Of a stretch of 64,000 nt of DNA, positions 38,901 to 62,100 are shown in pieces. The DNA comes from Saccharopolyspora ipomoeae (GTDB taxonomy: Bacteria > Actinomycetota > Actinomycetes > Mycobacteriales > Pseudonocardiaceae), in assembly GCF_029952525.1 (NCBI RefSeq), contig NZ_JASAOF010000027.1, positions 1 through 64,000 of the forward strand. Direction: 5' to 3'. Numbering within the stretch: the stretch's first letter is position 1; every line of letters begins with the position of its first letter. A program made the translations under genes and the position numbers. The notes beneath the pieces were generated by a model. That model searched no databases. It was not told the DNA's origin and saw nothing but the letters and a program-made list of their open reading frames with translations.

Positions 38901-41112
38901 CGCTGATCGCTTCCCGGAACTCCGCCAGCATCGGCTCCATCAAAGCCGAGTGGAAGGCATGAGACACGCTCAACCGCTGGAACTTCCAACGCCCGGCAAC
39001 CTCAAGAACAGCGTCCTCGTCCCCAGCCAGAACCACCGAACTCGGCCCGTTCACAGCCGCCAGCGACACCACACCACCCGAACCACTCCCGTCCCCAGGC
39101 GACGGAATACCGGAGTAATCCGATCCCCGAATACGGGAGTTTTCCGTTTCCGGAATACCGGAGTAATCCGTCAGGAACGGCAGCACCTCGGACTCACTCG
39201 CCCGAACCGACACCATCACCCCACCCGGGGGCAACGCCTGCATCAGGCGGGCTCGGGCCGTGATCAGGGTGCAGGCGTCCTCCAGGGACAACACGCCTGC
39301 CAAGTGGGCTGCGGCGATTTCCCCGATCGAGTGGCCCGCGACGTAGTCCGGGCGGAGGCCGAAGGACTCGGTGAGCCGGTACAGGGCGACTTCCAGGGCG
39401 AACAGGGCCGGTTGGGCGATGCCCGTCTGGTTCAGCGGCTCCTCGTCGGCACCCCACATGACTTCGCGGACCGCCGGGTCCAGGTGTTCCAGGACCTCGT
39501 CCAGGGCTTCGGCGAAGACCGGGAAGCGGTCGTAGAGCTCGCAGCCCATGCCGACGCGCTGCGAGCCCTGCCCGGAGAACAGGATCGCGAGCGTCCGCTC
39601 CTCGGCGACGCCTCGGGCGGATTCGACGACGCCGGTGTCGCCGTCGAGCAGGACCGCGCGGTGCTCGAACACCGGGCGCGATTCCACCAGCGAGTACCCG
39701 ATGTCGACGGAGGACTCCTCGTCGACGTGGGCGCGGATGCGCTCGGCCTGACCGGACAGCGCGCCGTCGGTCTTGGCCGACACCGGCAGCGGCACGACGC
39801 CGGGCAGGACCTGGGTGTCCTCCTCCGGCTCGTCCACGGCCTCGGGCTGCTCCAGGATCAGGTGGGCGTTGGTGCCGCTGATGCCGAACGAGGACACCGC
39901 AGCCCGCCGGGGCCGTTCGACCTCGGGCCACTCGGCGGCGTCGGTGAGCAGCGAGACCGCGCCGGCTTCCCAGTCGACCTGGGAGGAAGCGGTGTCGGCG
40001 TGCAACGTCCGAGGCAGGATCCCGTGCTGCATCGCGGTGATCATCTTGATCACGCCCGCAACGCCCGCTGCTGCCTGCGTGTGCCCGATGTTGGACTTGA
40101 TCGAACCCAGCAGCAACGGCTGCTCGCGGTCCTGCCCGTAGGTCGCCAGCAACGCCTGCGCCTCGATCGGGTCGCCGAGAGCCGTTCCGGTGCCGTGGCC
40201 CTCGACCACGTCGACGTCCGATGTGGACAGACCAGCGCTGGCCAGGGCCTGGCGGATGACCCGCTGCTGCGAGGGACCGTTCGGCGCGGTCAGTCCGTTG
40301 GAGGCGCCGTCCTGGTTCACCGCACTGCCCCGCACGACCGCCAGCACCTGGTGGCCGTGGCGGCGGGCGTCGGAGAGCCGTTCCAGCACGACCACACCGG
40401 CACCTTCGGACCAGCCGACGCCGTCGGCCGCATCGGAGTAGGCCTTGCAGCGCCCGTCGGCGGCGAGGCCGCGCTGCCGGGAGAACTCCACGAACGAGCC
40501 CGGCGTGGACATCACGGTCACACCACCGGCCAGCGCCATCGAGCACTCACCACTCCGAAGCGCCTGCATCGCCCAGTGCATCGACACCAACGACGACGAG
40601 CACGCCGTGTCCACGGTGACGGCCGGCCCTTCGAAACCGAACGTGTAGGCGACACGTCCGGACACGACGCTCGGCGAGTTCCCGGTACCCTGGTGACCTT
40701 CCGAACTGCCGCTGAGCAGCTGGCTGTAGTCGCTGTACATGACTCCGGCGAACACACCGGTCCGGCTGCCGCGCAGGGAAGTCGGGTCGACGCCGGTGCG
40801 TTCCAGGGCTTCCCAGACGGTTTCCAGCAGCAGTCGCTGCTGGGCGTCGGTGGCCAGCGCCTCGCGCGGCGACATGCCGAAGAACGCGGGGTCGAAATCG
40901 CCCGCGTCGTGCAGGAATCCGCCAGACCGGGTGTAGGAGGTTCCCGGGTTGTCGGGATCGGAGTCGAACAGCGAGTCCAGGTCCCAGCCGCGGTCGGCCG
41001 GGAACTCGGTGATCGCATCGACCCCGTCGGACACCAGGCTCCACAGGTCCTCCGGCGACGACACACCGCCCGGGTAGCGGCAGGCCATGCCCACGATCAC
41101 GATCGGGTCCTC
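35905..41112 (-). other. PKS module F: KS-AT-DH-KR-ACP and C-terminal docking region
   Basis: Residues 7630-9364. KS Cys lies near 40605. The AT is malonyl-type with the low-GC insert at 39105-39175. DH has [13 protein letters not shown] is LDD-type with Tyr near 36742, and ACP Ser is near 36268. After the ACP, about 80 residues form a helical and acidic docking tail ([13 protein letters not shown], then [19 protein letters not shown]), typical for handing the chain to a further PKS protein. Confidence 0.92.
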
Positions 41113-59100: not shown

Positions 59101-62100
59101 ACGAATACCGGAGTTTTCGGCGGGTCGAATACCGGAGTTTTCGTCCCCCTGAATATGGGAGTTTTTGACCTCGGAAAGATCACCCGACAGGAACGGCAGG
59201 ACGTCGGACTCGCTCGCGCGGACCGCGACCATCACGCCGCCCGTGGGCAGGGCCTGCATCAACGAGGCTCGGGCAGTGATCAGCGTGCAGGCGTCCTCCA
59301 GGGACAACACGCCCGCCACGTGGGCCGCGGCCACCTCACCAATCGAGTGGCCTGCGAGGTGGTCCGGGGTGATGCCGAAGGACTCGATCAGGCGATACAG
59401 AGCCACCTCCAGGGCGAACAGGGCCGGTTGGGCGATGCCCGTCTGGTTCAGGGCTTCCTCGTCCTCACCCCACATCACCTCCCGGACCATCGGATCCAGG
59501 TGGGCCAGGACCTCGTCGAGAGCTTCCGCGAAGACCGGGAAGCGGTCGTAGAGGTCCCGACCCATGCCGAGGCGTTGGGAACCCTGGCCCGCGAAGAGAA
59601 CCGCGAGGGGCTGTTCGCCCGCCTCGCCGCGGGCGGCTTCGACGAGGCCGTCGGGCGAGGCGAGCAGGACCGCGCGGTGCTGGAACAGCGAGCGGGAGGT
59701 CACCAAGGAGTGGCCGACGTCGAGGGGTGAGGCGTCGAGCTCGCGCAGGCGGGAGATCTGGGCGTCCAGCGCCGCCTCGGATTTCGCCGACACCGGCCAC
59801 GGGACCACCGTCGCCGAGGACTGCGACGCGACTTCCTCGACGGCCGGACCCTGCTCCAGGATGACGTGCGCGTTGGTGCCGCTGACGCCGAACGACGAGA
59901 CCGCCGCGCGGCGGGCGCGGCCGGCCTCCGGCCACTCCACCGCCGAGCTCAGCAGCCGCACCGAACCCGCTTCCCAGTCCACGTGGGACGACGGGTCCTC
60001 GGCGTGCAGGCTGCGCGGGACGACGCCGTGCTGCATCGCCGCCACCATCTTGATCACGCCCGCAACGCCCGAAGCGGCCTGGGTGTGGCCGAGGTTCGAC
60101 TTCACCGACCCCAGCAGCAGCGGACGCTCGCGATCCTGACCGTAGGTCGCCAGCAACGCCTGCGCCTCGATCGGATCACCCAAAGTCGTTCCGGTGCCGT
60201 GACCGTCGACCACATCGACGTCCGAAGTGGACAGACCAGCACTGGCCAGGGCCTGGCGGATGACGCGCTGCTGCGACGGGCCGTTCGGGGCGGTCAGGCC
60301 GTTGGACGCACCGTCCTGGTTCACCGCAGAACCCCGCACCACGGCCAGCACTCGATGCCCGTTGCGCTGGGCGTCGGAGAGCCGCTCCAGCACGACCAGA
60401 CCGGCGCCTTCGGACCAGCCGACTCCGTCGGCGGACTCCGAGTAGGACTTGCAGCGCCCGTCGGCGGCCAGGCCGCGCTGCCGGGAGAAGACCACGAACG
60501 ACGCCGGGGTCGACATCACCGTCACACCACCGGCCAGCGCCAGCGAGCACTCGCCCTGCCGCAACGCCTGCGCGGCCAGGTGCATCGACACCAGCGACGA
60601 CGAGCACGCCGTGTCCACCGTGACCGCCGGCCCCTCGAACCCGAAGGTGTAGGACACGCGGCCGGACAGCACGCTCTGCGCGGTGCCGGTGCCCTGGTAG
60701 CCCTCGAAGGTGTCGCCGTCGAGCAGCGTGCCGTAGTCGTTCACCATGACACCGGCGAACACCCCGGTCCGGCTTCCCTGCAGCGACGTCGGGTCGATGC
60801 CGCCGCGCTCGATGGCCTCCCACGCGGTCTGCAGCACGAGCCGCTGCTGCACGTCGGTGGCCAGGGCCTCGCGCGGGGACATCGCGAAGAAGTCGGCGTC
60901 GAACTCGCCCGCGTCGTGCAGGAATCCGCCCGAGTTCGAGTACGAGGTGCCCGCGTTGTCGGGGTCGGAGTCGAACAGCGAGTCCAGGTCCCAGCCCCGG
61001 TTGGTGGGGAACCCGGTGATCGCGTCGGCGTCCTCGCTCACCAGCCGCCACAGGTCCTCGGGCGAGGTCACCCCGCCCGGGTAGCGGCAGGCCATGCCCA
61101 CGATCACGATCGGGTCGTCGTCGACGGAGCTCACCGGCACCGCCGGGACGACGTCGAGAGCCGCGCCGAACAGGTCGTCGCGCAGGTGCTCGGCGAGGCG
61201 GGTGACCGTCGGGTAGTCGAACACCGAGGTAGCCGAGATCCGCAGGCCGGTCGCCGCCGTGAGCCGGTTGCGCAGCTCGACGGCGGTCAGCGAGTCGAAA
61301 CCGAGCTCCTGGAACGGCCTCCCGGGGTCCACTCCTCCGGCACCGGCGTGCCCGAGCACGGCCGCTACCTCCTCGCGGACGAGCTCCACCAGCCGCTCGG
61401 TGCGCTCCTCCGCGCTCAGCGAGGCGAGCCGGTCGACCAGCGCGGCGGTCTCGCCCCGCGAGGAGGCGGTGGCGCGGCGGATCGGGGTGCGGACGAGTCC
61501 GCGCAGCAGGTGCGGCACGTCGTCGCTGGAGCGCAGCGACGGCAGGTCCAGGTGCACCGGCAGGAGCAGCGGTCGCCCGGAGCCCAGGGCGGCGTCGAAC
61601 AGGGCCACGCCCTGCTCGACCGACAGCGCCTGGACGCCCATCCGCGAGATCCGCTGCACGTCGGCGTCGGAGAGTCCGCCGGTCAGTCCGACCGACTGGT
61701 CCCACGCGCCCCACCCCAGCGACACGGCGGGCAGACCGCGCTCCTGCCGGTGGTGGGCGAGGGCGTCGAGGAAGGAGTTGCCCGCCGCGTAGTTGCCCTG
61801 CCCGGCGCTGCCGAAGGTGGCCGCGGCGGAGGAGAACAGGACGAACGCCGACACGTCACCGGCGAGTTCGTGCAGGTGCCAGGCTGCGTCGACCTTCGGG
61901 GCGAGCACGGTGTCGACGGCTTCGGGGGTCAGCGAGGCGATCACGCCGTCGTCGACGACGCCCGCGGTGTGCACCACGGCCCGCACCGGGTGCCGCTGCA
62001 GGAGGTCGGCGACCGCGGCGCGGTCGGTGACGTCGCAGGCCACGACCCGGGCGGTGGCGCCCAGGTCGGTCAGCTCGGCGACGAGGTCGGCGGCGCCCTC

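Follow-up and report, generated by a model that had tools for sequence, protein, structure and literature searches.

In-frame arrays of a palindromic interspersed repeat in acyltransferase domains of a Saccharopolyspora polyketide synthase and their probable spread between modules

Introduction

REP, BIME, and REPIN elements are intergenic palindromes that are biased toward the 3' ends of genes, alternate in orientation, and form hairpins. Other palindromes are translated. According to excerpts of two reports, protein-coding palindromes occur in Rickettsia, Wolbachia, and Methanocaldococcus jannaschii, where they are short, lie in frame at unstructured positions, and leave the gene unbroken, and nearly half of the palindromic copies of Rickettsia conorii are located within open reading frames (ORFs) (PMC10969869, PMC2996958). 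Gene conversion between acyltransferase (AT) domains within a polyketide synthase (PKS) cluster is described in the accessible part of a further report (PMC4256081). Here, we examined a 64,000-nucleotide stretch of Saccharopolyspora ipomoeae (the window; positions 1 to 64,000 of contig NZ_JASAOF010000027.1, or C19), which belongs to a 6.63-Mb genome in 47 contigs. AT domains of a giant PKS in this window carried in-frame arrays of a short palindromic repeat. We conclude that a coding-compatible, palindromic interspersed repeat very probably entered one AT once and then spread between modules by AT gene conversion.

The repeat resembled the Rickettsia palindromic elements in that it was a genome-dispersed palindrome with in-frame copies in otherwise intact ORFs. 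The Rickettsia elements are about 150 bp long and lie in unrelated genes (PMC10969869, accessible part), whereas the repeat described here was a 24-bp tandem unit that was mostly intergenic, and one coding insertion seems to have been copied over a dozen modules of a single megasynthase in a high-GC actinomycete. The Saccharopolyspora repeat may be said to work like the coding palindromes of Rickettsia and Wolbachia by analogy of behavior; the first-pass annotation of the window had pointed to Rickettsia, and that likeness held for behavior only. As in REP and REPIN systems, palindromes were found between genes near gene 3' ends. Unlike REPINs and their RAYT enzymes, the repeat formed strict 24-bp tandem arrays, had in-frame coding copies, and occurred in a strain without a Y1 transposase (PF01797). 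Within this strain, the repeat does not qualify as a REP system of the Y1/RAYT kind. The repeats covered by the available part of PMC2996958 are likewise tandem, dyad-symmetric DNA read as protein, but they form amphipathic domains of 25 residues in ORFs without an assigned function, many of them membrane targeted, whereas the units studied here encoded eight hydrophilic residues in a catalytic domain and had a large intergenic reservoir. Compared with the known concerted evolution of ATs, a foreign repeat here labels the AT that converts and makes its path visible.

As far as the open-licence literature tells, novelty lies in the host, in an array whose 24-bp unit is compatible with coding, in the fact that one synthase was invaded repeatedly, and in the spread over its modules. 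In that literature, we found neither a prior description of the repeat in Saccharopolyspora nor a PKS AT with in-frame palindromes, and the accessible part of "Satellites in the prokaryote world" (PMC6749651) does not mention Saccharopolyspora. In-frame coding palindromes can now be placed in a high-GC actinomycete polyketide assembly line, where one can see together the intergenic source, the insert-free orthologous ATs, the module that was probably the founder, and the spread from one module to another. Because the insert tags ATs naturally, it can be used to trace how PKS modules convert one another, a matter that underlies synthase engineering, and it marks AT loops that accept 30 to 40 extra residues. 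It is also a clean example of intergenic repeats making new disordered protein sequence in 24-bp steps.

Results

Palindromic arrays interrupt four AT domains in the window

The giant PKS gene was located on the minus strand, and its ORF had a stop codon only at its end (Table 1). Four of the five complete ATs in the window contained a long loop (33, 39, 39, and 39 residues) directly after the sequence ...VLPFL, and all four inserts were in frame; the corresponding loop of module D had 3 residues (VDG). When up to 3 mismatches were allowed, GAATACCGGAGTTTTC matched 12 times, three times in each insert, and shuffled sequences gave an expectation of 0.10. The insert unit was composed of a 16-bp AT-rich palindrome, GAWWAC-NNNN-GTWWTC, and an 8-bp GC-rich spacer, and it was repeated every 24 bp. 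Thus, the low-GC insert that the first-pass annotation had reported in four ATs but not in module D was borne out: each insert had three units, and insert GC content was 0.51 to 0.56 compared to 0.70 in the window. The greater divergence that it had noted in module F was also seen, and the third unit of that module was the most diverged (3 mismatches).

The arrays of modules B and E, in which the center of the middle unit was inverted, each folded as a single hairpin; the fold z scores of all five loops are given in Table 1. Beyond the window, the same synthase had ten more insert-bearing ATs: C19 carried two (at 64 and 73 kb), and contig C8 carried eight (between 0 and 55 kb).

The repeat is dispersed between genes in this genome

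The exact form of the palindrome (type 1) was present 298 times genome-wide, and a reversed-pattern control gave 0 matches. We read 227 of the 298 units in 1.22 Mb of DNA fetched around known matches and called genes with a simple codon-model caller of our own. Because matches steered this sampling, imperfect coding copies elsewhere may be missed, and 71 units lay outside the DNA read. The genome-wide search, which the first-pass annotation had suggested, yielded 85 arrays in the DNA read: 70 were outside the PKS and all of these were intergenic, although 87% of the DNA read was coding, and 15 were in the PKS. Hence, type-1 arrays in coding sequence of the DNA read were confined to one PKS of about 24 modules. 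In the same DNA, 139 cases of neighboring units at most 60 bp apart were found; 112 of these had a spacing of 24 bp and 7 a spacing of 23 bp. The number of units per array was variable.

The intergenic arrays were located chiefly at gene 3' ends. Convergent gaps held 26 of the 70 arrays and made up 14% of intergenic bases (p 1.3e-6), and divergent gaps held 6 of the 70 and made up 32% of intergenic bases (p 4e-6). In tandem gaps, 29 of 38 arrays were closer to the 3' end of the upstream gene (p 8e-4). The flanks of intergenic arrays were mutually complementary, with a mean of 7.03 of 12 positions compared to 6.14 of 12 (a value reached in 0 of 1,000 permutations), which indicated that arrays tend to occupy the tip of a larger hairpin. 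A palindrome with a 23-bp period, GAAAACCCCGGTTTTC, was seen solely between genes because a 23-bp period would shift the reading frame. No Rfam match was obtained at the arrays of the window or at seven fetched loci.

Type-1 arrays are patchily distributed in the genus

We compared 22 genomes of the genus, including this strain and its close relative Saccharopolyspora flava DSM 44771 (G015). Type-1 units numbered 298 in this strain, 302 in S. flava, and 217 in G016; each of the other 19 genomes had 0 to 5, as compared to 0 to 4 in 39 genomes of other genera of the family and order. A sister family, GATTTC-NNNN-GAAATC, was more common, with at least 25 units in 14 of the 22 genomes and a maximum of 336 in G013; the 60 of these 336 units that were read formed 32 arrays, all intergenic. 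The sister pattern occurred 0 to 4 times in 143 genomes of the family's other genera, except for one genome with 14 and three with 33, 179, and 149. The latter three (G082, G139, and G174, respectively) belonged to genus g60 of the same family, and their copies had a different core with mostly GCGAG-like centers among the rows listed; genus g60 thus had an expansion of its own, parallel to that in Saccharopolyspora.

The synteny comparison, made by eye among four genomes, covered seven array sites from two stretches of 20 kb, and genomes that could not be paired at L037:4383 and L021:3645 were excluded from the counts. S. flava had type-1-like units at 6 of 6 paired sites (several imperfect), and two further species, G001 and G007, had them at 0 of 6 each, so the arrays of this strain were missing from syntenic sites of sister species. 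G016 also had them at 0 of 6, and its richness in units suggests that the repeat expanded separately in that genome. At C11:36095, a 240-bp gap contained five units (two imperfect) in this strain, and G016, G007, and G001 had stretches of 43 to 44 bp there, including 10-base flanks. At C7:31739, sister-family units were present instead in G016 and G007.

One might argue that the arrays are no spreading repeat but simply serve as intrinsic terminators or as operators that bind proteins, and that the PKS copies arose by chance convergence. The 3'-end bias, the hairpin fold, and the flank complementarity would fit such a role. However, unit numbers of 0 to 5 and of 217 to 302 within one genus do not, nor does the lack of shared array sites in unit-rich G016, and 14 copies were within PKS genes, where strong terminators would harm. 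We give this explanation hardly any weight.

The RAYT/Y1 transposase was rejected as the driver of the repeat: the PF01797 profile matched nothing in this strain or S. flava, nor in G013 and G004, the two genus genomes richest in the sister family. One match was found in G016, and there were matches in eight other genomes of the genus.

The site-1 insert is present in two of four orthologous synthases

PKS genes continued at C19:66296-85135 and, with other genes between, on C8 to position 75470. Based on colinearity with the S. flava cluster (contig C12, NZ_FOZX01000003.1), the cluster spanned C19:35905 to the contig end and then C8 to 75470. The S. flava record is named for a 3-hydroxybenzoate-primed heptaene (PMC8944477, accessible part). 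The cluster described here appears to be the heptaene cluster of that report; an AMP-binding loading domain was present in it, and the product is probably an aromatic heptaene.

A motif search identified 24 ATs in this strain (one cut by the contig end), 24 in S. flava, 22 in G001, and 23 in G007, although some may have been missed. The insert at this loop, termed site 1, was present in 14 of the 24 ATs here and in 13 of the 24 in S. flava, and it was absent from all 22 and 23 ATs of G001 and G007, respectively. The cut AT (C8:196) was counted among the 14 and was excluded from the tree and alignments. All 14 inserts in this strain were within the 21 ATs bearing the motif GHS[I/V]GE, which we take to mark malonyl-type ATs. 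One further S. flava AT had a short remnant of 6 residues (SDEPSR), compared to 3 residues in most insert-free ATs. Site-1 loops in this strain were 31, 33, 34, 39, or 41 residues long; loops of 31 and 39 residues, like those of 33 and 41, were one whole unit apart. Even within one genome, the peptides differed (TDYSGIP and TENSRIRG types). Separately, a GC-poor stretch of the AT directly followed the insert in many insert-bearing ATs of both species (C19:63985-64056 and similar places).

The arrays were compatible with coding. Among 48 readings (24 intergenic arrays of at least 3 units, both strands), frame 1 was open in 47 and had a mean grand average of hydropathy (GRAVY) of -1.63, frame 2 was open in 43 with a GRAVY of +0.85, and frame 3 was open in 6. 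An array can be read through because its period equals eight codons and the palindrome rarely has a stop in two of the three frames. Frame 1 was used at all three PKS sites and gave hydrophilic octapeptides such as ENSGIRPx, DYSGIPxx, and ENGSNPGP; frame 2 was used by an array in an E1 gene (see below).

When the module-B AT was modeled with AlphaFold2 (21 sequences), the mean predicted local distance difference test score (pLDDT) was 83 and the predicted template modeling score was 0.83. The only stretch below a pLDDT of 50 was residues 157 to 192, the insert, at about 31 to 34. The model thus predicts disorder for the site-1 loop and a good fold for the rest of the AT. At the insert's position, small natural indels also occur in solved ATs, and we regard the loop as tolerated, not needed, by the AT.

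An alternative is that the loop is an old protein feature, a functional loop of an AT subfamily for docking or specificity, and that its DNA likeness to intergenic repeats is secondary. Among the 13 S. flava copies, third positions were invariant in 14 of 15 unit codons, 30 of 80 flanking codons (p 8e-5), and 6 of 9 spacer codons, and whole codons were invariant in 14 of 15 unit positions and 3 of 9 spacer positions (p 0.004). These near-constant unit codons beside varying spacer codons, together with the retention of the loop in 27 ATs of two species with no frameshift, would be expected of a functional loop. However, 70 intergenic arrays held the same palindromes, ATs without the loop were found both among the further modules of the present synthase and in its G001 and G007 orthologues, the site-1 peptides differed in one genome, one S. 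flava module kept a mere remnant, and the loop was predicted to be disordered. The first-pass annotation had reasoned that a unit found nowhere else, at the same place in unrelated ATs, would be such a feature; the unit was common outside the ATs of this genome, and in our comparison of orthologous clusters the relatives G001 and G007 lacked it at that loop. We therefore consider an old protein feature very unlikely.

Silent sites and the AT tree point to spread between modules

In 12 module pairs, both species had the insert. At third codon positions, the orthologues of these pairs had an identity of 0.75 to 0.88 in the ketosynthase (KS), which fell to 0.68 to 0.74 across the AT and recovered after it. 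Among S. flava paralogues, third-position identity rose from values between 0.56 and 0.72 to 0.88, and it was 0.94 at the insert in a finer window. Six insert-free pairs kept an identity of 0.80 to 0.86 over the AT and dipped to 0.70 to 0.77 in the linker. The G001/G007 control was mixed: eight pairs had AT values of 0.61 to 0.68, little under their KS values.

Of the 26 insert ATs placed in a tree of ATs, 25 formed a group together with the S. flava remnant AT, and this group stood beside the corresponding last AT of G001 and G007. This grouping indicates that the insert probably arose in the last-AT module (C19:39336), whose AT then overwrote others. Modules C8:26402, 41256, 46251, and 55028 would be among those overwritten; the modules that correspond to them in cluster order in G001 and G007 kept their own AT type. 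The remaining insert AT, C8:36828, retained the backbone of its orthologues and had received little beyond the insert. The silent-site profiles and the tree thus supported conversion between modules, one of the routes that the first-pass annotation had offered.

Independent insertion, or true transposition, into each module is scarcely credible. Separate entries of arrays do exist (the KS-AT linker, site 2 of G007, and the E1 gene described below), but the 26 aligned site-1 inserts were at one AT position and 25 of the 26 were on one AT backbone lineage. The shared position and the tree, with grouping by own orthologue in just 1 of 26, led us to reject a separate insertion per module.

According to the explanation that we favor, the insert is an array of the genus's palindromic interspersed repeat, tandem and often alternating in orientation so as to form one hairpin. 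In the common ancestor of this strain and S. flava, one such array would have inserted into a heptaene-type PKS, in its last AT, at a loop that lies between a helix and a strand and tolerates indels. To judge from the tree and the silent-site profiles, gene conversion would then have replaced about a dozen of the other ATs with the founder AT and its insert. Units would have been gained and lost in 24-bp steps that kept the frame. Other arrays entered separately: in the KS-AT linker of one module, at a different AT loop in a further species, and in the E1 gene. The first-pass annotation had also proposed a selfish repeat in a tolerated loop. The genome-wide, patchy, and intergenic occurrence and the predicted disorder of the loop agreed with this idea, but autonomous mobility is suggested only by the patchy counts and the array-free sister sites.

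Could the insert be a driver of conversion instead of a passenger? In this case, the hairpin array would provoke breaks or strand invasion, and insert ATs would replace others. The S. flava paralogue identity peaked at the insert and decayed on both sides, long hairpins were found in modules B and E (less so in A and F; Table 1), and the insert-type AT took over the four C8 modules listed above, whereas little but the insert moved in C8:36828. Against a drive, picking insert-bearing modules amounts to picking converted modules, which makes the profile partly circular; AT homogenization occurred in G001 in the absence of an insert; and the peak was weak in this strain. In addition, a break at an insert is usually repaired from the other copy, which tends to lose the insert, not to spread it. 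On balance, we think a drive unlikely. A fuller proposal, in which hairpin arrays promote their own AT-to-AT conversion so that the element drives its spread, families of the same build invaded the synthase at least three separate times, and the unit invariance in S. flava reflects DNA-level selection on the palindrome, is possible but doubtful.

Several observations weigh against a single entry followed by passive spread through conversion. Paralogue identity at the insert rose only to about 0.75 in this strain, unlike in S. flava. Five insert-free G001/G007 pairs also dipped in the AT, to 0.59 to 0.64, without homogenization of paralogues. Eight G001 ATs formed a species-specific group without any insert, and this homogenization indicates that conversion needs no array, which may only hitchhike. 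Key tree nodes had ultrafast bootstrap values of 87 to 88 and SH-aLRT (SH-like approximate likelihood ratio test) values of 85 to 100, and a single tree describes recombining ATs only crudely. The silent-site constancy of the S. flava unit codons was not predicted by plain tolerance; either the palindrome itself is constrained or conversion is strongest there. Finally, the array-free sites in the synteny comparison, made by eye, had no clean target-site duplication, and the search for a transposase or recombinase, which covered Y1/RAYT only, linked none to the repeat.

Arrays entered coding sequence at other sites

Besides site 1, the KS-AT linker of module C19:83074 had 3 exact units and its S. 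flava orthologue had 5, which were read as ENGSNPGP-like octapeptides; the corresponding linkers of G001 and G007 were without units. In G007, an array was located at another AT loop, site 2, in 5 of 23 ATs (C14:53473, 68455, 73591, 97827, and 102960). These arrays were sister-family units mixed with decayed type-1 units, and the one at C14:53473 was much decayed. A site-2 length flag at G001:206504 was a motif artifact.

An alpha-ketoacid dehydrogenase E1 gene carried an in-frame, two-unit sister-family array near its N terminus in this strain, G007, and G016. The array of S. flava had one unit and was exactly 24 bp shorter, and that of G001 seemingly had one decayed unit; no E1 array was found in G002, G004, G005, or G013. 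When 2.65 Mb of DNA from six species, mostly chosen for matches, was scanned more tolerantly, coding arrays were detected only in PKS and E1 genes, with 0 matches in reversed strings of this strain's DNA. Single units in G023 (L191, called coding) and G036 (L190) were taken as chance and kept out of the counts. In the DNA read from this genome, in-frame copies were present in 14 ATs, one linker, and one E1 gene, and the stretches read held no stops.

Table 1. Positions of the inserts, related arrays, and the PKS gene (C19 coordinates unless another locus is named)
Feature	Position	Strand	Remarks
Site-1 insert, 33 aa, module A; units 39105, 39129, 39153	39073..39171	-	Last AT of synthase; tree points to founder module; z -2.6
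Site-1 insert, 39 aa, module B; units 44100, 44124 (inverted center), 44148	44068..44184	-	One long DNA hairpin, z -6.0
Insert-free loop (VDG), module D AT	49114..49122	-	z -1.2
Site-1 insert, 39 aa, module E; units 54051, 54075 (inverted center), 54099	54019..54135	-	Long DNA hairpin, z -7.8
Site-1 insert, 39 aa, module F; units 59103, 59127, diverged 59151	59071..59187	-	z -3.0
Part of giant modular PKS gene bearing inserts	35905..63999	-	Called to 66270 of C19
Sister-family array GATTTC-NNNN-GAAATC, three units, 24-bp period, intergenic between PKS gene and neighbor	35313..35376	.	Long hairpin, z -8.0
E1 array loci	G007 L203:6559-8763; this genome L211 (C44:11674-12126); L210, L212, L213		

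Other repeats and matches

Other repeats were noted in the DNA examined. An inverted repeat of about 70 bp, GGACAGTTTTAGCCATAAT ... ATTATGGCTAAAACTGTCC, was located between genes at 35614-35683 of the window, and a similar hairpin with CAGTTTTAG arms was present in G001; it looks like another dispersed hairpin family. Interspersed repeats of about 170 to 190 bp (L037:14570-14762, at C7:39570, and L037:13110-13283) had many copies that were about 81 to 95% identical. They were found in S. flava, G016, and G001, with fewer listed in G007, and also in type-1-poor genomes. Another palindrome family, of the AGTTTTNATGAAAACT type, was seen at L021:9135-9333 (C11:29135), and S. flava had further copies of this stretch. 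The window began with a (CCCGAGG)n run at the contig start (1-55), and a GC-rich tandem repeat of 14/28 bp was located between genes at 35806-35872. Rfam ASpks matches were found on the plus strand about every 5 kb (40096-40164, 45109-45177, 50035-50103, 55048-55116, and 60100-60168); these five matches, antisense to the PKS, are probably an echo of the PKS coding sequence.

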